Shown here: in pieces, positions 4,639 to 64,000 of the stretch
How the letters are laid out: each line of letters starts with the position of its first letter
Position numbering within the stretch: the first letter of the stretch is position 1
Source of the DNA: Triglochin maritima
Taxonomy: Eukaryota > Streptophyta > Magnoliopsida > Alismatales > Juncaginaceae
Length of the DNA stretch: 64,000 nt
Direction of reading: 5' to 3'
Assembly (NCBI GenBank): GCA_963682175.1
Contig: OY821791.1
Span: forward strand, 32,734,326-32,798,325
Notes under the pieces: model-generated
Told to the model about the DNA's origin: nothing
The model's database searches: none
What the model saw: the letters and a program-made list of their open reading frames with translations, nothing else
Translations under genes and position numbers: made by a program

Positions 4639-4697
4639 ATTTAAGCAGGGATTGAGCTCGAATTAGAATAGATAAATTCGCCACACATGATCTTACA
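4639..4697 (+). repeat. 3' tail of the 5' LTR of a SIRE/Maximus-like copia element
   Basis: This short stretch matches the last bases of the LTR at 6611-8040: both carry AGGGATTGAGC followed by GAATT, a GATAAATTC/GATAAATCC run, and a TC(T/C)TACA end. A primer binding site follows two bases later. The rest of this 5' LTR is presumably on the far side of element A, left of the window. Confidence 0.7.
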
Positions 4698-4699
4698 AT

Positions 4700-4712
4700 T
4701 GGTATCAGAGTC
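4700..4712 (+). promoter_or_regulatory. Primer binding site (initiator tRNA-Met type) of the SIRE-like element
   Basis: TGGTATCAGAGTC closely matches the initiator methionine tRNA complement used by most plant copia elements (TGGTATCAGAGCC), one base off. It sits two bases after the LTR end and before the gag region, as expected for minus-strand priming. Confidence 0.8.
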
Positions 4713-4794
4713 TTGTTAGCTAAATCACACACTTAAAAATATTTTTAGCAAGGCTCTAAATACATCCACACCTAGTGAACTCTCATCTAAATCA

Positions 4795-5960: not shown

Positions 5961-6610
5961 ATCTACACTTGTAGGTACTTGAAGGATTGGAGATTGGTGG
6001 TGATCGGGCAAGCTTGAGAGTCGAATTCAAAGATGGTTACATCACGGATTGGAGATTGGAACCAATTCAAGCTTCCATAGTGTGGTATAATTTTCTATCC
6101 TCTTAATTTTTGAATAAATTTGTTGTAGTGTAGGTAATAATATGCCTAATTGACATATCTTTTATATCATTCAGTGCATATCTTAAAATTTGAAAATCAT
6201 ACATTGATGTTAGTGTCAAATTTTTAAATGGATGTTAAAAAGGAAATTAATACATCACATGATTAATTGTCATATGTGCTTGAAGTTAAAAGTGGGAGAA
6301 TTAGAATTGAACTTAATTGAAATATCATATTCAGATTTATAAGGAGAGCTTAATGAATATCATTTACATAGAGAAATGAAGTGCAAAACTTAGGGGGAGC
6401 AACTTCTTTACAGGTCATCCAAATTCCATGTTTAATCTTAAAAAAATTGATGGATGTCAAAGGGGGAGAGATAATTGACGAGGTAACTTGAAATTCGATA
6501 ATGATTGAATAATAACTATGCCTATCCATAGGAAGAGCATTTTTATGCATAGTTTACATCTAGAAGTTCAAGTATTAAGATATAGGTTGCCATCATAAAA
6601 ATGGGGAGAT
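5961..6610 (+). other. Internal 3' region of the SIRE-like element with polypurine tracts
   Basis: No coding sequence is supported here. The stretch has several purine runs (GTGGGAGAA near 6291, AGGGGGAGAG near 6460) and ends with AAAATGGGGAGAT immediately before the 3' LTR at 6611, the expected plus-strand primer site. A short direct duplication of GGATTGGAGATTGG occurs near 5983 and 6046. Confidence 0.65.
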
Positions 6611-8040
6611 TGTTAGCTTTTCGGCCTTAATTCATGTTTTGATAATTTAATCAACCTAATCTTAATTGTATTTAATGTAGAGTAGCACACATATTGCATA
6701 ACATATATATTGCATTGTACTAATATCTACATGTGATCAAGACTCAAAGAAGAAAGGAATTCAAGTCAAGACATGTAATCAAGCTATTGAAAACATGTAA
6801 ATTTATATTTATTTTGAATCTTAGGAACATTGTATAATTGAGCACACTTGAGCTAAAAATCACTCACATGCACACTACATTCCTTATAGAAGTCATACAC
6901 AATATTTCATACATTTTGGACTTCAATAGATCACCTAAACTTAGACCGAAAAATCACTTAAAACATAAAACCAGATTTTTTGTGCTAAATAGTCGACCGA
7001 ATCAGTTCTCAGTTCGATCGTTTATAAGAGACTTTGTATTTGTATAAACCAAAACAATCCCCAAAATACTTTCAGCTTCCGGTCGAAAGAATACCCATAA
7101 ACGGTCGATCGGTTGAATAATTTTCCAAAAGCCCAAACTTACTATTTTCGGTTGATAAACTCTTTGTTTTACCGATCATCATTTACCTCAGTTGAAACTA
7201 CTTAACGGTCGACCGACCCATTTTCTGGTTCTACCGTTCAACTTAAGTTCTAGCTTTGTTGGTTCGACCATTCCTTATCCGTCCAACCTGTTGATCTCTG
7301 GATCAGTCTGGACTCTCTCTGGACAAGTCATCTGGTCGAACGTCTTACCTATACCGATCGACCGTTTTAAGACAGATTTGCATCCCGAATTTCTGCTTTG
7401 TGTGTCTTGCACTATCCAATCAAATCTATCCCCAACGGCTAGAAAACCTGAAGAGCTTATAAATAGAGGATCAAACATAGTTGTTAAGACAACTCTCCCA
7501 CTCTACATTGTCCAATACATTAGAGAGAAACTCTCAATTTTCAAAGCTCCCAAATTCACTCTTCAGGCTTATACTTCCACATCTTAGATCAATTTCATAT
7601 CATACTCTAAGTGTGCTCAAGTTAGAGAGTATTGTCCCACTCACATTTATGTTATCAAAAGAAGCAAGGATCTTGGTGAAAGCCTAAGACATAGAGTATA
7701 AACTTCAGTGAGAGACCGAAGTGTTACCTTCTCAGATTGTGAGAAAAGGATCCAAGCTAGGCGAGGGTTGTTCGCTAACTTGCTGTGTAAAAGCTTAATC
7801 TCGGTCTGGAATGAGGTTGGTAGTGAAGATGCAAGTTGAGCTCAATGGAGTTGAGCGGAGATTGCAAGAGAGAAAGTTGGCGGGAGGCTGAACCTTTACA
7901 AAAATCCGATGTCATCTTCTTGTGGTTTGTATTATTATTTTCTTTCACTACTTGCCTTTATTGATTGTTTCTACTGCATGTTTAGTAGGGATTGAGCTTG
8001 AATTGGATCAGAGATAAATCCACCCCACACAAATCCTACA
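6611..8040 (+). repeat. 3' LTR of the SIRE/Maximus-like element
   Basis: 1430 bp starting TGTTAGCTTTTCGGCC and ending ATCCTACA. The opening is shared with LTRs at 55344 and 58402 and, inverted, at 38016-39631 and about 59490-61000. U3 carries a block of CGGTCGACCG-type motifs (about 6990-7370). A TATA box TATAAATA is at 7458-7465 after an AACGGCTA run. The region downstream (7600-7880) is the transcribed leader that gives several spurious ORFs in this family. Confidence 0.85.
6990..7370. promoter_or_regulatory. CGGTCGACCG paired-motif block 1 (SIRE LTR, upstream of TATA)
   Basis: Degenerate pairs such as GTCGACCG..GTTCGATCG, CGGTCGAAA..CGGTCGATCG and GGTCGAAC..CGATCGACCG lie about 20-24 bp apart. 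The block ends about 90 bp before the TATA box at 7458. Confidence 0.7.
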
Positions 8041-9480
8041 AAGTTAAATCCGACAAGCTTGGGTTGATGTCAGTTAACGGTCGACCGGTGCTTTCACGTG
8101 GTCGACCGGTTGTAGTGTATTTCTTTGTTTTTACCCAACACTGGTCGGAAGATGCTTTGGACGATCGACCGGTTGTACATAATTTTGTTGGGTTCAGTAA
8201 TTCCTGATATTTTCGGTCGAATTAGACCCCTGAGTCGTTCGACCGTTGCCTGTGATTTTTTGTTGGACCAAGTGTTGACCATCTAAATGGTCGATCGCTC
8301 TAGACCTTGGTCTGACCGGTTGAGATTTTGGATTTGTAGGATGAACCCAGATATTTTCGGTCGGACAGGACCCCTGAGTCATTTCTATCGATTGACTTGA
8401 TTTTGACTTAGTCATATTTAGATTTTGACCTGTGAATTGTTGATCGGTTTTCACGCGTGGTTCGACCGTTGTGGACTAAATCTTGAGCCCAGAGTTCAAC
8501 CGTTGTAGGAATCTGTTTGACCGTTTCTTCTCGGAGCAGTCGACCGATTTGCTTTTTTCAGTCGACTGTTTGGGTCCTAGGTTCTTGTCATTGTGAAGTG
8601 TCAACTCTGTCCACGAAAACCCGTGTCCTCACCTAGCGCGTGAGACAGGAGGTGAGAGTGGGTACGATGATGGTGCTCCCCATGGACCGTCATGTGGAAG
8701 GGTATTGACACTTGGGATATGTCACCTCTGCTTTATGGAGGGTGGCGTAGCTTGGATTTGTCTTGACTCCTATTAGAGTAGCATACTTGGGGGTTCTCCT
8801 ATCCCATTTGCACGATGTTGCACGACTGTACGGAGCAGAATGACCCTGCGAGCTTTGACTCATATTGCCTTCTGGATGATTCTGAGGGCAATGTTGTTTC
8901 GTTCGATGATGTTCCGGACGAAGATGTTCTGCTGATGTTGTTCTGGTTGAAAGACCGTCTGTTGTTGTCGCAAACGAGGATGTACCTACCGATGTTGTTC
9001 CGACGGGAGCATAGCTGCCGATGATGCTTTCCAGCAAATAGTCTGGTCGAGCTCCGCCTGATTTGTGGACCGACATGGGCGACAGTCCCGTCAGTGAGAT
9101 GCTGACCTCGAGATTTCAGGTGATTTCTAATAGAGTAGACGTGCGAATGCTCCTCACCGATCCCTTGACTCGAGTCGTCTCGTATGGGGTTCGTTGTGTA
9201 CTCTCCGTAATACTCTGTGTGCTTACAGGTCTCTAAGGGAATCCAATATTTATTTGTAGAATGATGTCGTGTATTTACCTTTGGAGGGAATGATTTATTT
9301 GCATTGAGATTCATGTCTTGATGTACTAGTATGATAGGTTTTTCGTTGTACTACTGCACGTATATATGTGAGCTTGGTATATAGGGTTTCCTTATGGAAG
9401 CTAGCTCAAGCATTGTTGTTGTATTTTCTTTCAGGACCGCAGTAGGTGTTTGTGGCTGGTGACCGTTATTATGGTTGTGT
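8041..9480 (+). repeat. Gypsy-type LTR fragment
   Basis: It shares with the terminal LTR at 62601-64000 the CGGTCGACCG block, followed by a conserved stretch (CCGTGTCCTC.., GGGAGGTGA-like, GACCGTC.TGTGGAAG). The end (about 9455-9500) resembles the GACCGTTGACGGTC...TAAATTTTCTG tail of the LTRs at 17583 and 26600. Neither terminus is clean, so it is truncated, probably at both sides. Minus-strand ORFs inside it (8690-9314) overlap each other and look random. Confidence 0.6.
8070..8575. promoter_or_regulatory. CGGTCGACCG paired-motif block 2 (gypsy LTR)
   Basis: Contains ACGGTCGACCGG, GTGGTCGACCGG, CGATCGACCGG, TTTCGGTCG and several half-degraded copies spaced about 20-30 bp within pairs. The arrangement matches the better-preserved block at 63023-63586. 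Confidence 0.7.
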
Positions 9481-11789: not shown

Positions 11790-13232
11790 ATATATCTTCA
11801 CGTGGAAGTCATGATACAAATGGTCAAAAGAGTGATTAAAACTACAAAATCATAAAATACGTGATACAAATCATCGTTTCTACACAAGGGGCAGATGGTC
11901 CACCAGCACTGCCGCCACACACGGGCTAGACATGCAACACTGCAGCCACACAAGGGCCAAACAGGCAAAGCACAACAGAATACGCCCTCGATAGGTTATC
12001 TCCGTAGTTCTCAAGGTCAGTAAGAATATAGTTACCTAGCGAGAACATCCGTAGAACCATAGCCCTTTAAGCCGGTAGTCATCTATGCTCAACGGAATGC
12101 GTGTGTCAAGTCCACTAACTTGCGGCAAAACGGTCGACCACAAGAACATCGGTCGACCGGTCCCCACACAATACACAGTATTATTTAAACAAACGTATCA
12201 ATCAGTCGGATAAAAGATCAGAAGCGGTCGACCATTGGACTAGTCTACGCTCTGTCTTAAACATCAATACCGACAAAACGGTAGAACGAAAGTCATGTAG
12301 CGGTCGACCATTTAGAAAGTCTATGTTATTCAATATTTTAATATAAATATCCCTCCACTCAAACCAAGGATCCGTTCAACCGAAAATAGGAATTCTAGGA
12401 TTTTGCCCAAGTCATAATCGGTCGACCGACAAAGGGGTCTCATTAGTCTGAAAATAACAGACATTTCACTGCTCAACAATTATGCTCAATCGGTCGACCG
12501 AAAATCTAAGGGCGGTCAACCGTTTAGATGGTCAAAGCCCCCAACCGACTTAGCATCGATTATATCGGTCGAACTGGATCTAAGACATTCGACTGTTTAG
12601 CTGGTTTATGCCCTTAACCGACTTACTCTCATAGTTATCGGTCGACCGACTAAGGGATCTCGTTCGACAAAAAAATGCAACTAACCATTTTCCCACAAAA
12701 TCTAGCACAAACGGTCGACCGTCACCAAATATTGTTCGACCGTTGCGGGTAAGCTTACATATAATAATAGAATTGATCGACCTGAACCATACACCGATCG
12801 ATCGTTATTCGTCATCAACCTATTTCCAGGTTGATTCAGACAGGGAATCTGACGCCAACGTCCACTCCTAACACTCACACACCTCTGGTGAGTTATTATT
12901 GAGGACTTGACATACTTTTTGACGCGAGAGAATGCCTTCCAAACTTGAGCAAACTCCTCCTCTTCTTCTTCTCCTTTCTTTCTTTCTTTCTTTCCCCTTC
13001 TTCTTCTTCTTCACTCACTTCTCTCTCTTTGTTTCGTTTTCAACTGAAGAAAAGATCCAAAATATTAACCCTCACCCTTATTTATAAAGAAAATATTTTC
13101 TCAACCCAAATCCAACACAACTGCTATCTTCCACCTCACATGCCACCTCCTTCTTCACTGTTCACGTGATTAGATTAGGTTAATTACATTTAAGTTAGGC
13201 TAATCTAAGAGTCTTTAGGTTAGGTTATCACA
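11790..13232 (-). repeat. Gypsy-type LTR, reverse orientation, 3' end truncated
   Basis: Read on the minus strand it starts TGTGATAACCTAACC at 13232 and parallels the LTR at 17583: a GTGAACAGT stretch, a TATA box (TATTTATA on the plus strand at 13079-13086), a CT/GA-rich leader, then the motif block, then the GACTTCCACGTG segment near 11801. The last part of the LTR, after GACTTCCACGTG, is absent. The ORF at 12945-13169 lies in its pyrimidine-rich leader and is not a gene. Confidence 0.72.
12131..12800. promoter_or_regulatory. CGGTCGACCG paired-motif block 3 (gypsy LTR, reverse)
   Basis: TCGA-type centres lie at 12134/12153, 12206/12228, 12282/12304, 12494/12516, 12569/12589, 12642/12664, 12715/12736 and 12777/12798. 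Spacing within pairs is 19-22 bp, mostly 20-22. Successive pairs start about 72-76 bp apart over most of the block. Confidence 0.85.
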
Positions 13233-15212: not shown

Positions 15213-16195
15213 TGTTGGATATTAATCCAAAATTTGATAAAGGCAAAATTGTGTCAAAATGGTCGAACGGATTTTGGAGACCGGTCGACCGAATATTCAC
15301 AGTAGTTGTTGAGCATGTGAACGGTCGACCAGATGGATGCATTTGTCCGACCGGAAACTTCCAGTAGCTTTCGCGAGCTTGTGATGGTAGTGACCGGTCG
15401 ACCGGCAAAAGGTCGTGGTTCGACCGAAAATTTCCAGGAGATTTTGGTAATGATCGGTCGACCGATTTTTGAGATGCGTCCGACCGGAATTTTCCAGTGG
15501 CTTATCCATTGACCTTCTTGTGTAGAATCGGTCGATCGGTTGGGCATTTTAGGTTGACCGGTGCACGCGATTTCTGCCAGAATTAATTAAGGAATGATGT
15601 TGATCATGGGTTGGATTTATTCAATTATGATTAAATACGGATGTGAATTAATATGTGGAATATTGTGACTGGTTTTAGGAAGAGAAAAATATGGAATCAG
15701 GGGTTAGTGTTTAACCCATGATGTGGAAATTGTGGGAGCCTATAAATAGGCCTAATTTTCTTCATTATTCAGATGAATGCAAAAAAATTCTCTTCCTAAT
15801 CACACCATTAATCCATCCAAAAATTCCTTAATTAGATTAACTTTTTGGAAATCAAAATCTCAAGAAACTAAGAGGGGGTTATTAGCTTGATTCTAAGCCT
15901 GTTTGGAGATTGTTTGGCTAGCTCCTTTCTCTCCAACTTTATTTAGAGTTTGGTGAACACTCGGAGGCGAATCATCAGGCGATTGGAGGGGCAACACAAC
16001 TCCGAATTTTCAAGAGATTTTAGAGAACCTCTAGGTGTGTTTATTTAGCATTTACTTGTTTGTTCTAATGTATGCTAAATAATTAGGACAAACAAATGCA
16101 TGTTTACAATAAAATCAAAGAAAATATAAATATTCGATCCTGTTAATAAAAATTTGAAAAATATACACATACAATAGGACAAACAATCCTGCAAC
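15213..16195 (+). repeat. Copia-type LTR (family distinct from SIRE)
   Basis: Starts TGTTGGATATTAATCC and ends CTGCAACA, about 983 bp, with a TATA box TATAAATA at 15741-15748. U3 carries a very regular CGGTCGACCG block. The sequence following it (16196 on) repeats a short gag-start segment also seen reversed near 14030. No clear 5-bp target duplication is visible, so termini are provisional. Confidence 0.6.
15261..15560. promoter_or_regulatory. CGGTCGACCG paired-motif block 4 (copia LTR, upstream of TATA)
   Basis: Five pairs have centres at 15263/15285, 15325/15347, 15398/15420, 15458/15480 and 15532/15554, every one exactly 22 bp apart. Pair starts are separated by 62, 73, 60 and 74 bp. The block ends 187 bp before the TATA box at 15741. 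This is the cleanest block in the window. Confidence 0.92.
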
Positions 16196-17582: not shown

Positions 17583-19437
17583 TGTAACTGTAATAATCTT
17601 AATCTAAGCAACTGAATTAACTAAACTAAATCTAATTAAGACTTAATTAAACCGTGAACAGTAACTGATGAGGTGGAGTTGAGGATAAAATTTGGGTTTT
17701 GCAATAAATAGAGGTGTTAGGGTTAAATTGAAACGTTTCTTTCATTGTTGATCAAAACCAGAGAGTGAGAGGCACGATTAAGGAGGAGAGGAAGAAGAGA
17801 AGGAGAATGAGAAGAAGTGAATGTAAAGTGTTTGGTTAAGCTTGACAAAGCTCGGGAGGCTTCCACAAACTTCAAAATGGTATGCCAAGTCTTCATTATA
17901 ACTCACACAAGTTTTGTGGGTGTTGGGGATCGACGTTGGCGTCGGATTCCCCGTCTGATTTCAACCTGTCCAGAGGTTGAAGAAGACAGTCTGTCGACCG
18001 GTGTCTATTAGCGGTCGACCAATTTTAATATAATAATGTTTTCTACCCGCAAACGGTCAGACGATGTCTAAGGATGGTCGACCGTCATGCTAGATTTTCG
18101 TGTGATAAAGGGTTAGATGTTGTTTCGGTCGAACGGATCCACTTAGCCGATCGACCGAAATAATGAGAATAGGTCAGTTGAGGGTTTTTGACTTATTAAA
18201 CGGTCGAACACCCTTGATCTGGTTCGACCGATATATTTGATGCTAAGTCAGTTGGGAGCTTTGACCATCAAAACGGTCGACCACTCTTTAACTCTCGGTC
18301 GACTGACTAGCATTTTAAATCGAGCAGTAAAGTGCCTGTGATATTTCGGTCGAACAGAATCTCTGTTCCGGTCGACCGAATGTTACTTGGCAAAATGCTG
18401 AAATCCGTGTAGTCGGTTGAACGGACCCTTGGTTCGATCGGTGGGATTAATATTATAAAATATTGTATAGCGTAGACCATCCAAACGGTCGACCGCTAGA
18501 TGCTTCTTGTTCGACTGATTGGTCGTTAATTCGGTTGGCATGGTTCAACCGAAGTTTAACTGTTTGAACAATACTGAGTACTGTGTGGCGGACCGGTCGA
18601 CCAATGAGCTTGGAGTGGTCGACCGATCTGCCACAGGTTGATGAATTTATTCACACGCGAGTTGTCGATGTCAGGTTGACTACCGGCTCAGAGGCGATGG
18701 CGATTACTGGCCTTAGGAGCGACGGATTTCACCTTCGATGAGGGCGTATTATTGTTGAGCCTGTCATGCCGTACGGGGTATGAGAGATGATTGCCGTAAG
18801 CCTTGGGTTGTATGCTGGGGTTTGTCGGTAGGCTGAGGGAGTTCCGGCAGAGTGCGACGTCAGGCAGTCCTTGGGGGAGCAATGACTGTTGTCTGGCCTA
18901 AGTTGTGCATTTGGCGGGCTTACTCGTTCATTGTGGCGGCGGCGGCATACTAGGGTGCCTTCCTGCGGCTCTTGTGGGAGTAGTGGTGTCGTTTGGCCCT
19001 TGTGTGGCAGCGGTGGACTGACTTGACCGTTGTGGTGGCAGGAGTGGTATAGTACGCGGTGACGGAGATGTGTATTATTGTGGGCCCGAGGTGGATGATC
19101 ATGTGCATTGCATTGTCTTTCATTTCATTTTGGTATTTTAGGAGGTTTGGCATACGGGGTTCCAGCTGGGAACTCAGGCTGTTTCATTAGAGTCTGAGGT
19201 GGTCACCGAGGAGGGTGCCTCCAGGATCATATCCAATCTTTTGTTGATCCTTTTCTTTTTGAGGTAGTGATTACATGTTGTATAACTTTTATTTGTAATC
19301 ACAGTCTGCTTGTATATTTGACTTCCACGTGGATCTATATATATATTTCATCTTGTCATTTTCGTGACGCATCATGTGTTGACCGTTGACGGTCTTTTAT
19401 TATGTTTAAATTTTCCGTTATTTTCGGGGACGTTACG
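17583..19437 (+). repeat. Gypsy-type LTR (Tekay-like ends), nearly complete
   Basis: Starts TGTAACTGTAATAATC and ends GACGTTACG, about 1855 bp. TGTAAC...GTTACA-like ends with a GACCGTTGACGGTC segment (19380-19394) are shared with the LTR ending at 28254. A TATA-like AATAAATAG lies at 17703-17711, followed by a GA-rich leader and then the motif block. No internal retroelement sequence flanks it on either side, so it is a solo LTR or a fragment. No convincing target duplication was found. Confidence 0.7.
17990..18625. promoter_or_regulatory. CGGTCGACCG paired-motif block 5 (gypsy LTR, downstream of TATA)
   Basis: Centres lie at 17994/18015, 18057/18078, 18129/18151, 18204/18224, 18278/18299, 18350/18372, 18417/18434, 18489/18511 and 18597/18619. 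Spacing is 20-22 bp except one pair at 17. Pair starts are 63-75 bp apart. In many pairs the outer half-sites are the conserved ones (CGGTCGAAC ... GTTCGACCG). The block starts about 285 bp after the TATA-like element. Confidence 0.9.
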
Positions 19438-21590: not shown

Positions 21591-23570
21591 TATCCTAGAG
21601 GTGGAGTCATGTAGACTTCTTCTTCTAAATTTCCTTGAAGGAAGGCATTCCGACATCCATTTGATAGAGATTCCATTCATAATTGACAACAATAGAGAGA
21701 AGGACCCTAACGGTGTTCATTTTTGCAACATGTGCAAAAGTTTCTAGATAATCAAGACCATAAGTTTGAGTATATCTCTCAGCGACTAGTCTAGCCTTGT
21801 ACCTAGCAATGGAGTCATTACTATTATACTTAATTTTATATATCCATTTACAACCACAGGTTTTAATTCTAGGCGTCAAGGGGACGACAATCCAAGTTTG
21901 ATTTTTTAGAGCTAATCTAGTTCATCATTCATTTGCTTTTACCCAGTTAGGGTGCTTAAGGGCTTCATAGTAGGAGGCAAGTTCACTATTTTTATCAATT
22001 ACATCTACAAAACAATGATGAGAGGAAGTTATAGCGTTGTAGGAAATATAGTCCTTGATGGGATAAGTGACTTTATAAGTAACGAAACCTTGAAGATGAG
22101 ATGGAGTGCGAAGGGGTCGTGTGAACTTTCTTGCGGGGACCTCCTCTTCTTGTGGTTCAATATGTTCGTCATCTGGTTCACCCGTGGTACTTATGGTATA
22201 TTCGTCTTTCTGTATTAGGGAACAAGAGTTTCCTCAAGAGAAGAAGATAATTCAAACATATCAATGGTAGGGAGAGGAGTTGTCTCACCTATAGAATTAG
22301 TTTTTGTAGATTTGAAGTATGATTCATTTCAAAGAAAGATACGTTTCTAGAAATGTAAAGTTTGTGATTCGGAGGATTGTAGCATTTGTACCATTTCTTT
22401 TGGAAGCAGTACCCAAAAAAACAATTTTGATAGTATGAGCATCATATTTATCAAGCCATTTTTTATGAACATAGTAAGTACAACCAAAAATCTCAAAGTG
22501 GTTGACACTCATTGTGCCACCATTCAAGATTTCTAACGGTTGTTTATTTTGAATTGTGGGACTAGGGAGACAATTAATGAGATATACAACAGTTAAGATA
22601 GCTTCAGACCAAAACATTTTGGAACCTGAGTTTGAAATAAAAGGGATCTTGTGACATTTAAAAGGTGACGGTTTTTTCTTTCAAAAATATCATTTTGTTC
22701 AGGGGTGTTAATGCAAGTATTTTGATAAAATATGCCTTTTTCTTTCAAAAAATTTTGAAAAATATTGTTGGTGTATTCTTAACCATTATCTACTAAGAAC
22801 TTTAATTTTAGTATCATACATATTTTCCACCAAGGCAACATGCTCACAGAAAATAGAGAAAACATCATATTTTTATCTAAGCAAGTATAGCCAAGTTGTG
22901 GGAGAGAAATCATCAATAAAAGTAATAAAGTATCTAAACCCATTGTAAGACTCAACAGGGCCTGGTCCACAAATGTCAGAGTTAATCATCTCTAGAGGTT
23001 TCCCTATTTTAGTGGTAGAAGTAGTAGAAGGTAACCTATTTTGTTTTGCCAGACAACAAATCTCCCAACATAGCTCATTATTAAAATATATGCTAGAAAA
23101 TAACTATTTTAAAATCGGAAAAGACAGGTTACCGATGCGTTGGTGCCCAAATATCGAGTGCCCAGTAGGACACATTATTAGTGTGTAAAAAATTACTCGA
23201 GCTGTGAAAAATATATAGGTCATTTATGCGGACACCTCTACAAATCATCTTCGCTGATGGTCAATCCTGAAATAACACATCAAAGGATGAGAAGAATACA
23301 TGACAATTTAAATTTCTAGTAATCTTTGCAACAAACAGAAGATCAGATGTGAATTCGGGACCACATAATATTTTTTCAATTGTGTTGTTTAGTAGTTATG
23401 GTTCTCCTATTTCATTAATTTTGACTTGATTTCCATTGTGACAAATTTATTCATATTAGGGTCATACTCAATATTGCATAGTAGATCTTTATTTCCAGAA
23501 ATGTGATCGGCTCTGGTCTCTATAATCCATGAATTTATGTAGTTAGTGAGATTAGCAATGGGATTAAGGG
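21590..23570 (-). pseudogene. Copia pol fragment, reverse orientation (protease to RT)
   Basis: Read right to left, protease remains near 23500 (SWIIETRADHI, from SWIIDSGASDHI) come first. Then come integrase with INSDICGPG near 22990 and FWSEAILTVVYLINCLPS near 22615-22565, and WVP-type linker sequence. RT follows: GCKWIYKIKYNSNDSIARYK near 21860-21800, then KARLVAERYTQTYGLDY, NLYQMDV near 21665, and frameshifted NAFLQGNLEEEVYM to about 21600. Many stops and shifts are present. The RT end abuts the gypsy protease remnant. Confidence 0.8.
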
Positions 23571-23752: not shown

Positions 23753-25101
23753 GAGCACCCTCAACGGGGTGCTCAGAGACCGGTTATCCTTGGATAACCG
23801 GTCTCCAACCGGTTACAAAACCGGTTGTGCGGACAACCGATTTTTTTTAAAATGTATTTTGGTTTTTGTTTTGTGTTTTGTTTTGTAAAGTTAGATTAAA
23901 TGTTAAAGTTAATTATGTTAAAATGTTAGGATAATTTTTGTTGTTGATTTTTCATCTCTTTGAAATTAAAATTATTTTGAATTAATTTGTCTGCATTGAA
24001 AATAACCAAAATTAATATACTAAATCAAATTTGCATGCATTAATTTAAAACGGGAAGATACATTAGTACTGCTAATTAACTGAAAAAAATTTATGTTCCG
24101 TTTCTGGACACACTTTCTTCCTAAACCGGACAACAACTACACTTATTCCGGACAACAACTACACTTATTCCGGACAACAAATACACTTATTCCGGACAAA
24201 CTTGCTGTTCCGTTTCTCAAACTAGACCTCCAATTAAACTCGGCATCCTCAATGCCGAGTTCTATTTGAATCAATATTCCGGACAGCAACTACACTTATT
24301 CCGGACAACAAATACACTTATTCCGGACAAACTTTCTGTTCCGTTTCTCAAACTAGACCTCCAATTAAACTCGGCATCCTCAATGCCGAGTTCTATTTGA
24401 ATCACTATTCCGGACGGCAATTACACTTATTCCGGACAACAAATACACTTATTCCGGACAAACTTTCTGTTCCGTTTCTCAAAGTAGACCTCCAATTAAA
24501 TTCGGCATCCTCAATGCCGAGTTCTATTTGAATCACTATTCCGGACAGCAACTACACTTATTCCGGACAATAAATACACTTATTCCGGACAACAAATACA
24601 CTTATTCCGGACAAACTTTCTGTTCCGTTTCTGGACACACTTTCTTCCTAAACTGGACAACAACTACACTTATTCCGGACAACAAATACACTTATTCCGG
24701 ACAACAAATACACTTATTCTGGACAAACTTTCTGTTCCGTTTCTGGACACACTTTCTTCCTAAACCAGACAGCAACTACACTTATTCCGGATAACAAATA
24801 CACTTATTCCGGACAATGTGATATTTCCTTTTTAAAATGTTTTTAGTATTATGTAATCTTTTTATTTAGTTGTAATATTTATTTTGATGAATGAAATTTA
24901 TTTTGTGGAAATGAAAATTGTATGGATTTTTATTATTGTGGAATAGAATTAAAAATGATGTGGAAGAAAGAGAATGAGTTGTGGGGGGGTTGTGGGGGGT
25001 TATGGGTGAGGAGTGAATAGTGCTAAAGAGAGAGAAAACGGGTTGATTTGATGTGAATAGTACCATGATCGGGTTGTACCAGGTCATGGTTAATGGTGGT
25101 C
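23753..25101. mobile_element. PIF/Harbinger (Tourist-like) non-autonomous element with internal minisatellite
   Basis: The left end GAGCACCCTCAACGGGG and the right end, inverted GACCACCATTAACCATG, are imperfect inverted repeats flanked by TAA at 23750-23752 and 25102-25104. That is the 3-bp target duplication expected for Harbinger elements. A second hairpin ACCGGTTATCC/GGATAACCGGT follows the left end. The right subterminal region (GTTGTGGGGGG, GTGAATAGTG) is typical of plant Tourist-like MITEs. At 1349 bp it is long for a MITE because of the repeat array at 24110-24815. It encodes no transposase. Confidence 0.75.
24110..24815 (+). repeat. Minisatellite: TTCCGGACAA-based units within a 131-bp higher-order repeat
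   Basis: The basic unit is about 22 bp (ACACTTATTCCGGACAACAA), repeated many times with small changes. A longer unit recurs with exact 131-bp spacing: CGGCATCCTCAATGCCG starts near 24241, 24372 and 24503. This longer unit includes TTTCTGTTCCGTTTCTC and a hairpin CTCGGCATCCTCAATGCCGAG. The ORF running through it is an artefact of the repeats. Confidence 0.9.
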
Positions 25102-26599: not shown

Positions 26600-28254
26600 A
26601 AGAATCCATAATAACCTACCAGATGTGTGTGAGGGTTAGGGATCAACGTTGACGTCAGATTCCCTGTCTGAATCAACCTTGATAGAGATTGAAGAAGATT
26701 AACGGTCGACCGATTTTATAGTTTTGGTCGACCGGTTGTATTATATTATGTATATTTTACCCATAACGATCAGACGATATCTGGTGACGGTCGACCGTTT
26801 GTGTTTGATTTCGCTAGAAAGAGGGTTGATGTTGTTTTCGATCGAACGGGACATTTAACCATTCGATCGGCGACTTTGAGAATGAGTCGGTTGGGGGCAT
26901 AGACAACCTAAATAGTCGACCACCTTTAGATCTAGTTGGACTGATTCATTCGATGTTGAACTAGTTGTGGTATGGACGAGTCTAAATGGGGTCTGGTTGT
27001 ATCGTTGGATGAGTCTGGATGCGATGGATGGACACTGGACGATGTTTGGACGAGTTGCTAGTTTGGTCTGGTCGGGTGTTGAAGCATGGATTTTACCCTT
27101 GATCGGTCAACCGCTCTGAGACATCTGTTCGACCGTTTGAGCATGTTTGTGGGCAGATAAGTGCCTGTTATTTTTGGTTGACCGGTAATGACTTAATCAG
27201 AATCATGGAAGCTCTGGTTCAACCGATGTGATTTTTATATTAAAATATTGTATGGCATCAACTTTCCAAATGGTCGACCGCCAGATTACCTTTGTCCACC
27301 GGTAGGTTGTTATTGACGGTTGGGACCAGACATAAACCATTCAAACGGTCGACCGCTTTCGACCCTCGGTTCGATGACCATTAGTATGTTTTGCTTAGAC
27401 AATACTCGGTACTATGTGGGGACCGATCGATCGGTGTTGTTGTAGCGGTCGATCGTTCTGCCGCATGTTAGTGGACTTGATTCACACTCATTCCATTGAG
27501 TTTAGGTAATTACTGGCTTGAAGGACAACAGTTCTACAAATGTTCTCGCTGAGTGACGATACTCTTACCGGCTTTGAGAGCCACGGAGGTAACCTACAAC
27601 GATGGTGGCTGTGCTTTTCCTGTCTTGCCCTTGTGTAGCAACAGTGTTTTGCATGTCTGGCCTGTGTGTGGCGGCAATGCTTATGGATTGTCTGACCTTT
27701 GCGTGGCAGCAGTGTTTTGCATGTCTGGCCTGTGTGTGGAGGCAGTGTTGATGGACCGTCTGACCCTTGTATGGTAGTGGTGTGAGGATCCCAGTTTTGG
27801 CGATAACCAAGGTTGTTGCAGGCGGGTTGTGAGTGGACCGTGGATATGGCAGTAGAATGTTGTTGGGTCGGATGGTGGATATTGTACTCATGTATTATTG
27901 TATTTTCTTTTTATATGTTAAGAAAGTTGGCATACAGGGTTCCTTCAGGGAAACTCTGACTGTATATTTTGTTTGCATTTCAAGTAGCAAGCTACATTAT
28001 TGGGTGGTGATCGAGGAGTAGTACCCCCGGAGTCAGATCATTTCTCAGTTATTTTTTTGTAGATGTGTGGTGATTACTGTACGGTTATGTAGTAGTTATT
28101 GTAATCACTTTTTTCGTCATTCTTTATAGTTGACTTCCACATGGAAATACTTTATATATATATATTCAACTTTTGTGGTTTGAGTAACGTATTCTGTTGT
28201 TGACCGTTGACGGTCTTAATTATTTTAAATTTTCTGCTGTTTCGAGGCGTTACA
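26600..28254 (+). repeat. Gypsy-type LTR, 5' truncated
   Basis: It aligns by eye with the LTR at 17583 from its GGGATCAACGTTGACGTC.GA segment onward (about 26638), through the motif block and GACTTCCACATGG near 28131, to GACCGTTGACGGTC (28201-28214) and the GGCGTTACA end. The first part, including the TATA region, is missing. An internal stretch at 27640-27760 has a local duplication of GCATGTCTGGCCTGTGTGTGG. Confidence 0.72.
26700..27460. promoter_or_regulatory. CGGTCGACCG paired-motif block 6 (gypsy LTR)
   Basis: Contains ACGGTCGACCGA with TTGGTCGACCGG, GACGGTCGACCG, TCGATCGAACGG with TTCGATCGG, and ACGGTCGACCGC with CGGTTCGAT. It ends with GACCGATCGATCGG and GCGGTCGATCG. Many are paired at about 20-24 bp, but the block is more decayed than the one at 17990. 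Confidence 0.78.
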
Positions 28255-38015: not shown

Positions 38016-39631
38016 TGTAGGATCTAATTGCCCTTAATATTAGTCTAAAGGAGGTGAATAGACTAATTATGTTCTAATAAAAAGTTAAATAATTTTAAAC
38101 TAGAACAATAAAAATAGTGAAGAGAGAAACAAACCACAACACCGGATGTATACAGGTTTGGATCCAACCACCAGATCCTAGTCATTTCTTACAAATTGCT
38201 CTTCCTTGAGCAACTTCACATTCTTCACTAATCTGATCTTCTTTCCGGGCAAAGATCAAGCCTTTACACTTCAAGCTTGCGAACTCCCTCGCCAAGCTTA
38301 GATCACATTCTCACAATCCGAGAAGAGCTCCACTCCGGAAGCTATTACAACACTTGTAGAAGAAAGAGCTAAACTTCTAATCTCAAATTCGTGAATGATT
38401 AGATGAATGCAATTTGAGTGATTCAAGTGAAAGATTGGGCACAAATGAAGTTTGGGATCAAATTTGTGTAGTATGAGTATGAGAACTTTAAAGATGGGAT
38501 TGGTGTGTTCTAAAGATGATCTAAAACTCTATTTATAAGCTTCTAAGATTTTCTAGCTATTTGGGATATATTTGATTGAGTTTTGTGCAAGATACACAGA
38601 GCAGAACTTTAGGATGCAAATCTGTCCGAAGACGGTCAACCGAATCTAGTTAACTGGTCGACCAGTATTAAAGATAAGAACACGATCAAATGAAGAGTAT
38701 ATCGGTCGAACCTAATAGGCTAGAACTTAAGTGAACGGTCGAACCAGACAAAAGGTTCGATCCGTTTAGGAGGTTTTGACCAGAAAATATGAGTACTGGA
38801 AATAACGATTGAACCAAGGAGGCAATCCGTTCGACCGAAAATAACAGTAAAAACTAAGCTCGAATTCAATGTTTATTCGGTCGACCATCATAGGGAAATC
38901 GGTCGACCAATAAACAAAAATCAAGAAATACGTTAGATAATAGAATATATATTCGACCGTTGTAGAATACGACAGGTGCAATGGTCGATACGTGAGAATT
39001 CAGCTGCTAATCGGTCGAACCAAATTGAAACTCCGGTCGACCGGTTTGCATGAAGTAAGGGACATGTGTCACAATATAAAACAATAGAGTGGGTAGGAAT
39101 CAATCAAACTGGGTTATATCAGTGGACACTAAAAATGGTCGAACATGGCAATAGAAACGGTCGACCGTGAGAAACAGGAAATTGAGAAGAATAGAATGGT
39201 CGAACTGAGTAAAGGCTAGTTCGACAGTTTTGGTAATAAGTTCAGGAAATTGTTTGTACCGGTCGAACCAGATGATCTACCGGTCGACCGGTTGAGACAG
39301 AATTCCTGCAAGAGTGGAATTTTCAAAGTATAGTTGGTCCTTAACAAGGTCGGTTTCATGTATAGTTAGGCATGCCGACTTCTATAGGTATGCAATGTTA
39401 ATGGTGATGATTTAAGTGCTTGAGTTACAAATAGACCTAAGTACAAGAATTAAATCTTATACTACTCTTCAATCTTAATTCCTTTCTTGATTCAATACTT
39501 AATTCCTAAAATGTTAGTGAAATATATATATATATATGCATGCTATTAGGAAGTCTTTTTAAACATTGATATAGATTTATTGATAAGTTAGTTAATCATC
39601 AATATAAGATGTATTAGCCAAAATGCCAATA
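38016..39631 (-). mobile_element. Solo SIRE-type LTR (reverse) with CTCTG target duplication
   Basis: The plus-strand left end TGTAGGATCTAATTG is the inverted LTR 3' end (cf. ATCCTACA at 8040). The right end AGCCAAAATGCCAATA is the inverted start (cf. TGTTGGCTTTTTGGCC at 58402). CTCTG flanks it at 38011-38015 and 39632-39636, a perfect 5-bp target duplication. An inverted TATA box is at 38530-38537. It interrupts the MULE transposase, so it is younger than that element. No internal sequence remains, as expected after LTR-LTR recombination. Confidence 0.9.
38630..39300. promoter_or_regulatory. CGGTCGACCG paired-motif block 7 (solo SIRE LTR)
   Basis: Copies include CTGGTCGACCAG, ATCGGTCGAACC, ATTCGGTCGACCATC with AATCGGTCGACC, TCGGTCGAACC with CCGGTCGACCGG, ACGGTCGACCGTG and ACCGGTCGAACC with ACCGGTCGACCGG. 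Most pairs are about 20-24 bp apart. In LTR orientation the block lies upstream of the TATA box. Confidence 0.82.
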
Positions 39632-55343: not shown

Positions 55344-56924
55344 TGTTGGTTTTTTGTCCTCAATCTATGTTTTGATGATGTAATCAACCTAATCTTAATT
55401 AGGATGATGTAAATTAACACACATGTTGCATTGTATATATTTTTCTTTGTTCTAACATCTACAGGTGATCAAGACTCAAAGAAGAAAGAAAAAATAAGTC
55501 AAGACATGTAATCAAGCTGGATTTGAAGACATATATTTTGTATTTCTTTGAGTCTCAGGAACTCGTGTAAATTGAGCATACTTAGAGCTAAAATCAAATC
55601 ACACATACATTAGGTCCTTAGAGAAGTCACACACAAAATTTCACATAATTTGGACTTCATTAGATCACCCAAACTTAGACTAGAAAACACCAAACCAGAA
55701 CGCTAAACTGTCTGCCTGCGTTCGGTCAACCGGTACAGGCCGTTTGGTTGACTGAGTGACCAATTTGTTTGGTAACCCATTCTTAGTCCGGTCGACTGTC
55801 CAGACTTCGGTCACCCGATTCCAAATTTAGTGTTAGACTGGCCAGACCAGTCCGGTCGACTGTCCAGACTTTGATCGACCGAATATCAAATTTTTATATG
55901 ACCATTTTATTTGTCGTATACTTCCAACGGTCGTATTTCGTATAAAACAAAATAACCCCCAAATACACTTAGGACCGGTTGAACAAAATCCTGAACCGGT
56001 CGATCGATTGAACATTTTCCAAGTGACCAAAAATTCCTGTAACCGGTCGATACACATTAGTTCAACGGATCCAAGTTTGTCTCAGCCGAACCACTAAGTT
56101 CGGTCGACCGTTTGAGCTGTTTTGGTCGACCGTTTATTAAAGAACTTGTAGTTTTGGTCGACTGTTCCAATTTCGATCGACCGTTGATGGACAGATTTGC
56201 AACCTGCGATTTTCTGATTTGTGTATCTTGCACAATCTTCAATCAAATCTTGTCTCAACGGATAGAAACCTTTAGGAGCTTATAAATAGATGATCAAACT
56301 TAGTTTTCTGAAGATCTCTCCCACACATTATTGTCCAAACCTACAGAGAGAAATTTCAATCCTCAAAGCTCCCAATTAGATACTCCAAGCCTCAATTTCC
56401 ATATCTTTCATCATATACAAATCATACTCAAAGTGTGCTGAATCTAGAGAGTGTTGTCCCACTCATTCACTTGTGAGAAAAGAAGCAAGGGTCTTGGTGA
56501 AAGCCCAAGACATAGAGCAAAGGTCTTGGTGAAAGCCCAAGACAAGAGTAAAGTCTTCAGTGAGAGCCCGAAGAGACCTTCTCGGATTGTGAGAGGAGAT
56601 GTCAAGCTCGACGAGGGTTGTTCGCGAGCTTGAAGATATGTAAAGGCGTTCTCTCCCGGCCCAAACGGGGAGTGGATAGTGAAGGCGCAAGAGGTGCTCG
56701 AGGAAGTCGAGTGGTGCTTGCAAGAGAGAAAATAGGTAGGAGACCGAACCTCTATAAAAACCTCGTTGTCTCTCTTCTCATCTTGTGTGGTTTGTTTGTC
56801 TCTGCTTGTGTTTGTTTTAAATTCCATTGTGCATCTTTTGATTAATCATACAAGTAGGTGATTAATTAGATTATTAACAAAGGATTAATTAACATTAAAA
56901 GCCACATAATATATCGATCTTACA
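55344..56924 (+). repeat. SIRE-type LTR (solo)
   Basis: TGTTGGTTTTTTGTCC.. start, GTTTTGATGATGTAATC, motif block, AACGG run, TATA box TATAAATA at 56281-56288, the leader with GGTGAAAGCCC.AGAC repeats, and a GATCTTACA end. No primer site or gag follows, and hAT sequence begins soon after, so this is a solo LTR. No clear 5-bp duplication. A short local duplication AAGCAAGGGTCTTGGTGAAA / AGCAAAGGTCTTGGTGAAAG lies near 56483 and 56517. Confidence 0.78.
55725..56190. promoter_or_regulatory. CGGTCGACCG paired-motif block 8 (SIRE LTR)
   Basis: TTCGGTCAACCGG, CCGGTCGACTGT with CGGTCACCCG, CCGGTCGACTGT with TGATCGACCG, ACCGGTCGATCG, and GGTCGACCGTTT with TGGTCGACCGTTT lie about 18-24 bp apart in pairs. 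Ends about 90 bp before the TATA box. Confidence 0.78.
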
Positions 56925-58345: not shown

Positions 58346-58779
58346 TTGGTTAAATAAAAAAATATTAAGATTAAACAAAGTGAATCACGTAACGAATTAG
58401 TTGTTGGCTTTTTGGCCTTAATTCGTGTTTTGATGATGTAATTCAACCTAATCTTAATTAGGACATGTATATTAGCACATATAGTATAATTGTATATATG
58501 CTGTATTGTGGTAACATCTATAGGTGATCAAGACTCAAGAAAAAAAGAAAATCAAGTGAAGACATGTAATCAAGCTGGATTGAAGACATGTAATTTTGCT
58601 TTTCTTTGAGTCTTAGGAACTTATGTGAATTGAGCATAACTTAAGCTAATATGCATTCATACACACACTAGGTTCCTTGTAGGAGTCACACACAAAATTT
58701 CATATCAATTGGACTCCAATAGATCACTCAAAACCTAGTAGGGAAACACCTAAAACATTAAAGTCGCCACTGCCTGTTT

Positions 58780-59315
58780 TCGGCCGACCGTTTGCCTTTC
58801 GGCCGACCGAATAATCATTTTCACACTTACTGTGTTTTCCTTGGCTTTTCCCGGTCGACTGTTTCAACTCTATCGCTCGACCGATTACACATGTATTTTG
58901 TCAACCTGACTAGTCCGGTCGACTGTCCCAACTTCGGTTGATAGATTCCAAGTTTATACCCATATTTCGCAGACTAGTCCGGTCGACCGTTAGACCTTCG
59001 GTCGACCGAATAAGGGTTATCCGAATTGTGTATAAATACTACCGTTATATTTGTCGTATTATACAACGGTCGTATACTCAAATAGTCGTATTTCCCAAAG
59101 TACATTTGCCCTTACAGGTCGAACAAATTGCCTTTACCGGTCGAACCAATTTTACAGAGACCAAATTCTCTATTATCGGTCAATACAAGATTAGTTCGAC
59201 CTCTTAAGTTTTGTCTCAACCGAATGATAAGTTGGGTCGACCGAATGACCTTATCGGTCGACCGTTTCATTAGTGAACTTAAGTGTTCGATCGACCATTC
59301 CAGGTTTGGTCGACC
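58780..59315. promoter_or_regulatory. CGGTCGACCG paired-motif block 9 (SIRE LTR, upstream of TATA)
   Basis: Centres lie at 58784/58803, 58855/58877, 58919/58938, 58983/59002, 59119/59141, 59180/59196, 59237/59258 and 59287/59310, that is 16-23 bp apart, mostly 19-22. Pair starts are 50-71 bp apart apart from one gap. TATA follows about 100 bp later at 59413. Confidence 0.85.
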
Positions 59316-59489
59316 GATTGGAGACAAATTTGGTTCCTGCGAATTTCTGCAATGTGTATCTTAAACATATTCTTACCAAATCTTCTCCAACGGCTATAAT
59401 TCTCTTAGAGCTTATAAATAGATGTTCAATCCACACATTTCATTAACACTTACACTTCCATATCATCTACACTCTATAGAGAATTCTCC

Positions 59490-61000
59490 AAGTCTCCCCT
59501 CTGGATCGTGACCCCTCTTAGTTCTAATCACTTTTTAGTAATTATCTACTTGGTTGATTAACAAGATATGCACAACGGAAATTAAAAATCAAACACAAGT
59601 AGAACAAGCAAACGACAATAGACGCAGCGGATTTTCCAGAGGTTCGGCCTACGTCCTCTCTTGCAAGTCCCTCTCGAATCCCCGTTCGAGCTCCTCTTGC
59701 GTCTTCACTATGCCTCCCCGTTCCGGGCCGGGAGCAACGCCTTTTACACTTCAAACTCGCGAACACCCTCGTCGAGTTTGGAACCTCCTCTCACAACCCG
59801 AGAGGGATCACTTCGGGCTCCCACCGAAGTCTCTACTTGTGTCTTGGGCTTTCACCAAGACCCTTGCTTCCTTTGACAACAATTGAGTGGAACTCACTCT
59901 CTAATGGAGAACACTTGAGTAAGATGAGTAATTGATCAAATGTGTGTAGTTTAGGCTTATGGAGTGTAGAGATGGGAGCTTTGAGGATTGAGGTTTCTCT
60001 CTAATGTATTGAGACAATTTGAGTTGGAGAGTTGTGTTAACAACTGGTCTTGATTCTCTATTTATAAGCTCCTAAGGTATTCTAGCCGTTGGGGATAGAT
60101 TTGGTTGGGTTTTGTGTAAGATACACAAAGCAGAAAATCGGGCTGCAAATCTGTCCAGAACCGGTCGACCGAAACTAATAAACCGGTCGACCGTTGTCTT
60201 GATATTAAAGAACACGGTCGAACAAATCAATAATCGGTCGAACCTAACGGGCTAGAACTAAACTCTACTTAAGTGAACGGTCGAACCAATACATGGGGCA
60301 GTCGACCGTTTAGGGGGATTCGGTCGAAACAAAGGTGAATCGGTTGAACGAAGAGTGTGTCGACCGATTACAGGGACTGAAAAGTGTTCAACCGGTCGAA
60401 CGAAACAAGGTCGTCGTTCGACCAGACGCCAAAGGTATTTTGGGGTTAAATTTGTTTTATACGAATACGATCGTTGTAGGAATACGACAAAGTTAACGGC
60501 CATATTAAAATCTGGGATCGGTTGACTGAAAAGGTAGAACCGGTCGACCGGTGGAGTTCGGTAAAATCACTGTGGAGAGTCTGTTATAAATCGGTCGAAC
60601 TGAGAACTCGTTCGGTCGACCGGTTAGCACAGGAATTCTGGTTTTAGGTTTTAAGTGATTTTCGACTCGGGTTTGGATGATCTAATGAAGTCCAAATGTT
60701 CTGATAATTTGTGTGTGACTTCACTAAGGAACATAGTGTGTAAGTGATTGGTTTTTAACTCTCGTATGTTCAATTTACACATGTTCCTAAGACTCAAAAT
60801 AAATCAAGATTACATGTCTTCAATATAGCTTTAATTACATGTCTTGACTTCATTTCCTTTCTTCCATGAGTCTTGATCTCCTGTAGAGGTTAGCACATGC
60901 AATATATGGCAATACAATATGTGTGCTACTCTACATTACTTATGATTAAGATTAGGTTGATTAAATCATTAAAACAAGGATTAAGACCAAAAAGAGAACA
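59490..61000 (-). repeat. SIRE LTR nested in reverse orientation
   Basis: The plus-strand right end AAAAAGAGAACA is the inverted start (TGTTCTCTTTTTGG). The left side (TTCTAATCACTTTTTAG, CACAACGGAAATTAAAA) is the inverted end also seen at 61385-61450. An inverted TATA (TATTTATA) is at 60059-60066. The left terminus is blurred, so the boundary near 59490 is approximate. A possible target duplication is imperfect (TCTCC/TCACC). Confidence 0.78.
60160..60622. promoter_or_regulatory. CGGTCGACCG paired-motif block 10 (nested SIRE LTR)
   Basis: Centres lie at 60165/60187, 60218/60238, 60281/60302, 60324/60344, 60396/60418, 60522/60544 and 60595/60616, that is 20-22 bp within pairs. Several copies are perfect (CCGGTCGACCG at 60161-60171 and CGGTCGACCGG at 60541-60551). 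Confidence 0.88.
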
Positions 61001-61488
61001 TCACCAATGCTCATTTTGATCACTTAGAGCCTAAATTTCCATATCCTTCATACTACTCACTTAGTGAAAGTTGTGCTCAATATAGTGAAGAGTGTGTTCC
61101 ACTTCTTGTTGTCAAAGCAAAGACTTCGGTGAAATTCCGAAGGGTTCCCTCTCGGGTTGTGAGAGGAGGTTCCAAACTCGGCGAGGGTGTTCGCGAGTTT
61201 GAAGTGTAAAAGGTGTTGCTCCCGGCCTGGAACGGGGAGGCATAGTGAAGACTGAAGACGCAAGAGGAGCTCGAACGGGAATTCGAGAGGGGCTTGCAAG
61301 AGAGGAAGTAGGCGGGGCCGAACCTCTGGAAAAATCCACTGTGTCATCTTCTTTGTGGTTTGCTTGTTCTACTTGTGTTTGTTTTAATTTCCGTTGCGTA
61401 TATCTTTGTCAATCAAGTAAGTAGATAATTAGCATAAAAGTGATTAGAAGTAAGCCAGATTATCGATCCATCTATTTTCAACATTAGT

Positions 61489-62600: not shown

Positions 62601-64000
62601 TGTTAAGTCCCTAAACCCATTAGGGTTTGATTAGTGGTTAAGTGGAGGTTTGACTTGGAGGAGAGAGGGAGGTATGGCTGGGGGTAAGGTGAAGTGATGG
62701 AGGTAAGGTGGGAAGTGAGGGAAGTATGGTGGGACGTGCTTGGGGTGTCAGCTTGGGTTTTATAAACCAAAGCAACACCATCTCTTTTCTTCTTTTCCTT
62801 CTTCTTTTCCTCCATTCTCACCAAGCACCCATCTCCTTCCTCGGTCGCTCGAGCTCAGGCGGAGGAGGCTGCATTGGCGTAAGGCTTGCGGAGGTTGGCG
62901 CGCGAGGAGGATCACCGGAGGCAACGGAGTCGCGAGCGAGGCTTCGGCGGGTTCGTTGCGTTTACGAGGTATGCCGCTCCCTAGTGTGATTTTGTTGCTC
63001 ACCCTCGTGGGAGGGTTTTGTTGGTCGGTCGGGGGTCCCTTTGGGCGGTCGACGTAAATGACGTAAATCCTCGCCTGGCGCGAGGTTGAAGACGACCAAC
63101 GGTCGACCAGGTCCCTTTGGGCGGTCGACCGAAGTAGTGTTTTTACCTGACTTTAACCTTCACCGGTCGAACGATGCCTCGTGGCGGTCGACCGGTAGTG
63201 CATTTTGCTGGTGAGTTGGGAATGTCTGTTGTGTTTCGGTCGACCGATTCTTTGGGGTCGTTCGACCGGAACTTAAGTGTACTTGTTGTTATGCATGTTT
63301 GTTCGACCGATTATTTTTATGCGTTTGACCGTTATATGACGTAGAATTACTAGGTTGACCCTGTTAGTTTTCGGTCGACCGGGACCCCTGAGTCGGTCGA
63401 CCGATAGTTTGAATTTGATGTTGACCAGACTCCGGATTTTGACTTCGTATCGGTCGACCGGTTTTAGACCTTTGTTCGACCGTCTGGGACTTAGGTTTTG
63501 CGCAGTGAGTTCGACCGATGCAGACTTTCGGTCGACCGATTTCCTTGTGAAAGCGGTCGACCGGGTAGCCTCTTTCGGTCGACCGTTTCTGCACAGGACT
63601 GAATTCTTGGTTCCCTTTTTGAATGCCAACTATGTCCACGGAAACCCGTGTCCTCGCCTTGTGCGTGAGCCGGGAGGTGACGGTGGGTGCGTTACGCGTG
63701 CCTGCCCAGGGACCGTCGTGTGGAAGCCTGTGGGTGTTCGGGACGCGTCTCCTCCATGTATGGAGCGGGACTAATGTGATAGATTGATTGGACTCATTGT
63801 AGTGTAGCAGGCCTGAGGGATCACGGATCCCAATGTATGATGTGTGTGCGAGCACGCAACTGGCATTGGGTGAGGTGACTACCGGCCTACGGGCTAAGGA
63901 GGTCGCTGCCCTGCTTTTATAGCGGCGCGGTTGGTGTTTACTGCTCGTGGAGCCTGATGACCTTGCAGACTTCGGTCTGGACCCGTCCGATGCTGTGCCA
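62601..64000 (+). repeat. Gypsy-type LTR, continues beyond the window
   Basis: TGTTAAGTCCCTAAACCC start, AG-rich upstream part, TATA box TATAAA at 62761-62766, C/T-rich leader, GC-rich coding-like segment (62840-62980), block 11, then a tail shared with 8600-8760 (GTGTCCTCGCC.., GGGAGGTGA, GACCGTCGTGTGGAAG). The related LTR at 17583 suggests several hundred more bases to the right. ORFs at 62708-63057 fall in the leader and are not supported as genes. Confidence 0.7.
63023..63586. promoter_or_regulatory. CGGTCGACCG paired-motif block 11 (gypsy LTR, downstream of TATA)
   Basis: Nine pairs with centres at 63029/63049, 63103/63125, 63167/63188, 63240/63262, 63303/63325, 63375/63397, 63454/63476, 63511/63532 and 63557/63579. 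All are 20-22 bp apart. Pair starts step 74, 64, 73, 63, 72, 79, 57 and 46 bp. The block starts 268 bp after the TATA box. Confidence 0.93.

Follow-up and report, generated by a model that had tools for sequence, protein, structure and literature searches.

The window, that is, the whole stretch of 64,000 nucleotides of Triglochin maritima DNA analyzed here, is crowded with old transposons and contains 136 sites that match the 10-mer CGGTCGACCG, a palindrome with a CGG-CCG core, with at most two mismatches; shuffled sequences give an expectation of 5.05. A position-weight scan (symmetric weight matrix, score of at least 7, neighboring sites merged) places 150 sites in 11 arrays, c1 to c11, each of which holds 8 to 19 sites. 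Six of these had been named in the initial annotation, and the scan adds those at 6990-7364, 8078-8568, 26703-27455, 38633-39290, and 55723-56183. Four array families are distinguished by blastn: A (c1, c7, c8, c9, c10), B (c3, c5, c6), C (c2, c11), and D (c4). A looser search additionally aligns the C arrays to B and D arrays (56-69% identity), which is no proof of common descent because the palindromes themselves align. Families B and C resemble each other downstream of the arrays too, and from such similarity they may be distant relatives.

Array c4, the sole member of family D (15260..15560, plus strand), lies in a putative long terminal repeat (LTR). Its sites form five pairs (15260/15282, 15322/15344, 15395/15417, 15455/15477, and 15529/15551), and the figures first reported for it, a spacing of 22 bp in every pair and distances of 62, 73, 60, and 74 bp between pair starts, are all reproduced. 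The word TATAAATA follows downstream of the array at 15741, the linkers between pairs have a TTTCCAG-type block in common, and a search for a target duplication at c4 returned only a few chance-like candidates. The similar series described at 63023-63586 was found again in its pair starts (64, 73, 63, and 72 bp), but its first pair matches the motif poorly. The alternation of six and seven turns is present at c4 and c11, whereas the other arrays have varying gaps.

The position of the arrays within transposable elements is clearest in family A. Array c9 (58781..59316, plus) lies in an LTR: it is part of a solo LTR at 58402..61483 (plus) that is flanked by the 5-bp target duplication TTAGT and interrupted by the LTR of c10 (60162..60622, minus), which is nested in it in reversed orientation. 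Target duplications were sought at c1, c4, c5, c6, c8, c9, and c10 and found only at c9. A fragment of a hAT-like transposase (RNase-H fold) is located just upstream of the c9 LTR, at 57879-58343. Homology gives good support to an LTR location for the other family A arrays as well, namely c1 (6990..7364, plus; LTR start at 6611), c8 (55723..56183, plus; LTR start at 55344 by homology), c10, and the fragment c7 (38633..39290, minus). In all five, TATAAATA stands downstream of the array, as it does in c4: at 7458 for c1, 38537 (minus) for c7, 56281 for c8, 59413 for c9, which has another copy within the array at 59031, and 60066 (minus) for c10.

Family A appears to be Sirevirus-like, judging by the marks at c1, the one of its five arrays on which they occur: multiple polypurine tracts (PPTs) AGGGGGAG and an AT/TG attachment site. 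Two exact copies of the Sirevirus PPT lie at 6392..6399 (plus) and 6461-6468, and there is no other exact copy in the window. They are followed at 6601..6612 (plus) by ATGGGGAG-AT/TG, which combines a terminal PPT (one mismatch) with the Sirevirus attachment site and sets the LTR start at 6611; blastn homology within family A begins at 6610-6611. Further upstream, CAATTGGTATCAGAGT at 4696..4711 (plus) corresponds, with one mismatch, to the junction of the Sirevirus 5′ LTR with the primer-binding site (PBS), and a gag-like open reading frame (ORF) begins after it at 4720, with a DUF4219 match of 18.2 bits that is under the Pfam cut-off of 27. The junction pattern CA/ATTGG plus TATCAGAGC is found with one mismatch at 4696 and with four mismatches at 11332 and 59885 minus.

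The arrays of families B and C presumably lie in LTRs too. In family B, c5 (17991..18625, plus) is contained in a probable LTR at about 17583-19437 (plus) that starts with TGTAAC and ends with GACGTTACG; a TATA-like word, AATAAATAG, lies upstream of the array near 17703. The probable LTR of c3 (12131..12804, minus) starts with TGTGATAAC, with TATAAATA upstream of the array at 13086 (minus), and that of c6 (26703..27455, plus) ends with GGCGTTACA, the LTR end ...GAGGCGTTACA being at 28254. In family C, c2 occupies 8078..8568 (plus) and c11 occupies 63023..63585 (plus), with the TATA-like TTTTATAAA upstream near 62758. A TATA-like box therefore precedes the array in c3, c5, and c11. Because the TATA-like words are near-palindromic, the orientation of B and C is taken mainly from the CT-rich leader of c11 and from the similar downstream blocks. 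Exact Sirevirus marks are absent from families B and C within the window. The LTR ends of family B look like those of Ty3/gypsy elements, but with no coding domain attached, this possible affiliation is at most a lead. However, two of the nine hits in the window of a PPT-like 12-mer with two mismatches are close to family B arrays, one at 26190, preceding c6 by 513 bp, and one at 12961 minus, ahead of c3, and this weakens the case for family B being non-Sirevirus.

A tblastn search with the window's Copia polyprotein detected pol pieces at 288-2973, 21593-23061, and 30993-33336, none of which is clearly attached to an array. The polyprotein itself is an intact ORF of 1347 aa (47708-51751, minus) flanked by 397-bp direct repeats at 46963-47359 and 52430-52826 that are 100% identical; the Copia element that they bound is probably a very recent insertion. 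Relatives of this ORF are found in many flowering plants, e.g., Vitis, Fagus, Xanthoceras, and Hibiscus, among the 120 of 306 matches listed. Other repeats in the window include a 637-bp stretch present in two adjacent direct copies that are 89% identical (41332-42598), a 95-bp unit in tandem duplicate with 99-100% identity (36396-36595), and tandem copies of a 22-bp unit, TATTCCGGACAACAAATACACT, organized into larger repeats of 131 and 112 bp (24072-24816). The 22-bp unit of the latter likewise measures two helical turns and has a CCGG core.

Pairing is a general property of the sites. Gaps of 21-22 bp make up 50 of the 139 gaps between adjacent sites, compared with 7.0 under random placement (maximum of 15 in 500 draws). 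Within the 60 pairs of 19-23 bp, the outer half-sites carry 49 mismatches to the motif, compared with 101 in the inner half-sites (Wilcoxon, 9.7e-5), which bears out the initial observation of conserved outer and variable inner halves. By family, the outer and inner counts are 24 and 44 in A, 17 and 36 in B, 7 and 9 in C, where the contrast is small, and 1 and 12 in D; the 30 unpaired sites show no comparable bias (30 and 25 mismatches). The pair consensus is CGGTCGA(C/A)C ... G(T/G)TCGACCG. Its most frequent inner change, C8>A, was counted 35 times and the mirrored outer change, G3>T, 5 times, so the asymmetry is not due to CpG decay alone. Seven of the 60 pairs are spaced by 19 bp and are exceptions to the two-turn rule; in their 14 half-units, position 8 is never an A.

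Beyond the pairs, adjacent gaps fall into the classes 31-36, 38-46, 48-57, 62-64, 69-78, and 92-117 bp, and none of the adjacent gaps measures 37, 47, 58-61, or 65-68 bp. The shortest of these linker classes, 31-36 bp, is above three turns. For all site distances between 26 and 160 bp, a scan of periods from 5 to 30 bp yields a single dominant period of 10.50 bp (mean cosine, 0.434), and the runner-up peak, 0.18 at 5.25 bp, is half of that period. When the long gaps were jittered by up to 5 bp, the score had a mean of -0.009 (sd 0.059) and reached the observed value in 0 of 2000 trials; random site placement gave a mean of 0.003 (sd 0.040) and a maximum of 0.145 in 2000. Of 360 distances, 69% deviate by no more than 2.1 bp from a whole multiple of 10.5, against 40% expected, and whole-turn spacing is thus in excess of chance. 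Bootstrapping over arrays places the period at 10.40-10.52 bp, and it stays at 10.45-10.50 bp for score thresholds from 5 to 13. The phased arrangement proposed in the initial annotation from a handful of arrays is strongly supported by these results, with a period of 10.5 bp.

The signal is unevenly distributed among arrays, families, and distance ranges. Randomized arrays matched the observed phase in 0 of 2000 cases for A, 0 of 2000 for B, 42 of 2000 for C, 166 of 2000 for D, and 10 of 2000 for C and D jointly, figures that represent just four families, two of them strong, in which copies of the same family are of common descent. The rule nevertheless recurs in families whose linkers cannot be aligned with each other, A and B each displaying it on its own. 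The top peak of family C alone is at 7.15 bp and not at 10.5. When one array per family was taken, p was at most 0.01 in all 30 combinations (300 draws each). Individually, 6 of the 11 arrays are significant at p<0.05 (c3, c5, c8, c9, c10, and c11), and c1, c2, c4, c6, and c7 are non-significant in the single-array phase test. Phasing persists when the main gap class of 48-57 bp is removed (45 gaps; V-test, p 8.5e-5). In addition, 15 short control words taken from the array sequence between the sites score between -0.12 and 0.07 at 10.5 bp. At distances of 25-60 bp, a period of 26.3 bp is slightly above that of 10.5 (0.329 vs 0.292); at 100-160 bp, one of 11.35 bp is level with it (0.404 and 0.399); beyond 160 bp, the phase signal is weak (0.14, then 0.08).

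A spacing of about 10.5 bp is the pitch of free B-DNA. Units that lie whole turns apart would place whatever is bound to them on a single side of the DNA. We therefore favor, with a probability of roughly 0.6, the reading that the arrays would be one-faced cooperative arrays for a dimeric DNA-binding protein, i.e., a cis-regulatory module of the LTR. Each CGGTCGACCG-like palindrome would be the site of one protein dimer. A unit would consist of two such sites separated by two turns, with most weight on the outer half-sites and with two dimers probably side by side. Whole-turn distances of about 3 to 11 turns between units would bring their complexes onto one face of the DNA, where they would act cooperatively and govern either the LTR promoter or its silencing. 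The binding of a protein, its cooperativity, and its effect on transcription are what we infer from the arrangement of the sites. A LOB-domain (LBD) or WRKY protein was considered as the reader of the motif; we make no such claim, and the LBD-motif literature searched offers no usable support for it.

Other explanations for the same pattern have to be weighed against this one. The initial annotation had itself pointed to tandem duplication of one ancestral unit with conserved intervening sequence, and a neutral version of this idea, in which a unit of about 63-74 bp was copied, only the palindromes are still recognizable, and the phase was inherited rather than selected, appears unlikely, although part of the evidence does fit it. 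Among 28 linkers between successive pairs (gaps of 26-80 bp), 5 of 44 same-array comparisons are clearly homologous at z>4, as are 7 of 49 comparisons between arrays of the same family. Of the five, c4 provides three, which involve its four linkers, and c3 and c5 provide one each, with two linkers apiece. Similarly, a contig from outside the window, L196, which is described below, carries three similar pair units with 82-94% identity. However, z=4 is not exceeded in 39 of the 44 comparisons within arrays or in any of the 285 between families, 3 of which are above z=3. The 12-bp spacers of the 35 pairs at 22 bp are close to the level of shuffled sequence within the same array (identity of 0.305 vs 0.291; 53 comparisons) and between families (0.314 vs 0.286), and exceed it between arrays of the same family (0.347 vs 0.291), as relatives should. 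Yet gap lengths fall into classes about one turn apart, even among the homologous linkers of c4, whose gaps of 40, 51, 38, and 52 bp form two such classes. A 73.5-bp unit, moreover, would have a harmonic at 12.3 bp, where the score is just 0.159. Duplication thus accounts for some linkers of c4, c3, and c5 but not for the pair spacers or the one-turn differences in c4, and the outer/inner asymmetry together with the non-homologous spacers implies that plain tandem duplication does not account for the spacing rule. VANC targets arose through duplication, according to the accessible text of PMC5735166. Some units here did, judging by their linkers, originate in the same way, with a length rule that outlasts the sequence.

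Less probable is a role at the RNA level, in which hairpins of the LTR transcript would serve small-RNA silencing or the RNA genome and the spacing would be a mere consequence. For each of the 11 arrays, folding as RNA surpasses the average of 30 dinucleotide shuffles (z of -2.5 to -8.7; -4.97 for c4), and in maize the clustered palindromes of Sirevirus LTRs are hotspots of small RNAs, as far as the accessible parts of PMC10760457 and PMC5311732 go, but good folding is possibly a by-product of the palindromes. It is not apparent what a 10.5-bp period would mean in RNA; this pitch suits free B-DNA. Covariation between the inner bases of the two members of a pair is absent (Fisher, p 0.75), their Watson-Crick share being 0.594 vs 0.625 with shuffled partners, a result that speaks against selection for a stem. 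Small-RNA targeting may then be a side effect. Least probable is the chromatin-positioning element that the initial annotation offered beside its cooperative array, with the phased boxes fixing either the rotational setting of nucleosomes or the edge of a chromatin domain. GC-rich boxes phased within AT-rich DNA could set a rotational phase, but the nucleosomal pitch is nearer 10.2 bp, which fits badly with a period of 10.40-10.52 bp and scores 0.016 here. AA, TT, and CG outside the sites lack a 10.5-bp phase, and neither the strict 10-mer nor the conserved outer halves would be explained. Of the two original suggestions, the cooperative phased array is the more likely one. A bolder extension of the protein-array reading, which we consider doubtful, is that one spacing grammar is common to unrelated lineages (Copia Sireviruses and perhaps Ty3/gypsy) and would be read by one conserved plant protein that forms a one-faced filament or enhanceosome.

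Outside the window, the pair pattern matches 118 stretches in public viral contigs, of which 2, both with 68-69% GC, contain three exact or eight near-exact sites (a loose filter); a stricter pair pattern gives 9 matches and the PBS-junction pattern 14. In prokaryote genomes, 112 loci match the pair pattern, and among adjacent exact pairs at 19-22 bp the commonest spacing is 21 bp (59 of 121). Eight of the 11 loci examined closely are runs with a 21-bp period (L133, L151, L171, L187, L188, L198, L212, and L224); L234 has mixed short steps and L223 three clustered sites. L133, L151, L187, L188, and L198 are on four contigs of one Odoribacteraceae metagenome-assembled genome (MAG) and in one Planctomycetaceae MAG. 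The remaining locus, L196, is a 3.2-kb contig with 44% GC that is assigned to an Acidobacteriota MAG, with three CGGTCGACCG pairs at 2473-2680 whose members are 21 bp apart and whose starts are 74 and 94 bp apart. In the window it matches only c11 (93 bp at 72% and 154 bp at 64%), palindromes dominating the alignment. Its longest ORF has 124 residues, and its end, which looks gag-like, has no match in Pfam and is not counted as evidence. The composition and missing long ORFs suggest a eukaryotic origin, and L196 is probably misbinned eukaryotic LTR DNA.

The motif has been described before. In the accessible parts of PMC2829016 (Bousios et al., 2010), CGGTCGACCG is listed in Table 3 as the “repeated motif” (RM) of a Vitis Sirevirus with 10 copies in the 3′ LTR; RM clusters form CpG islands upstream of the TATA box, and the authors were unable to name a common RM-binding factor (PMC2829016). 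The statement in the initial annotation that no such plant LTR module had been described therefore falls for the motif; for the spacing rule it stands in the literature searched, which missed many subscription papers and contained no paper describing helical spacing in LTRs. The accessible text of PMC2829016 has no RM spacing, pairing, or helical phase. The motif is known, then, and the spacing rule is possibly unpublished.

The arrays share with the Sirevirus RM the identical 10-mer (in Vitis), at least eight copies per element, the CGG-CCG palindrome, the LTR location, and, in family A and c4, an array upstream of the TATA box (PMC2829016, accessible parts). They differ in that the RM is held to be Sirevirus-specific there, whereas families B and C are devoid of exact Sirevirus marks, and in that the TATA-like box is upstream of the array in c3, c5, and c11. 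A 2016 study of maize palindromes, as cited in the available portions of PMC10760457 and PMC5311732, likewise concerns folded clusters of CGG..CCG palindromes in LTRs, but with a different motif, CACCGGACNNNGTCCGGTG, and with structure and small-RNA targeting as its subject. The VANDAL/VANC system is similar in that short motifs are densely packed into non-coding regions of a transposable element; in contrast, the VANC21 motifs (YAGTATTAY) are non-palindromic and lie within tandem repeats in a single orientation, and the accessible text of PMC5735166 and PMC10398659 makes no mention of motif spacing, periodicity, or palindromes. The boxes of tobacco Tnt1 (cited in PMC2829016, in part accessible) are also repeated LTR regulatory boxes bound by host factors, but boxes of this type usually occur as two or three in tandem and have other motifs.

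The heat-shock elements of ONSEN are a further case of repeated LTR regulatory boxes that host factors bind, again with other motifs. Known since 2010, the Sirevirus RM would, under the helical grammar, be read as DNA and not just as RNA. A dimer-of-dimers footprint of about 32 bp would be expected from this grammar, and the natural pair would provide a probe with a built-in control, a half-turn change of the spacer, with which to fish out the protein. If it holds for several retrotransposon lineages, one factor may control much of the plant's transposons.
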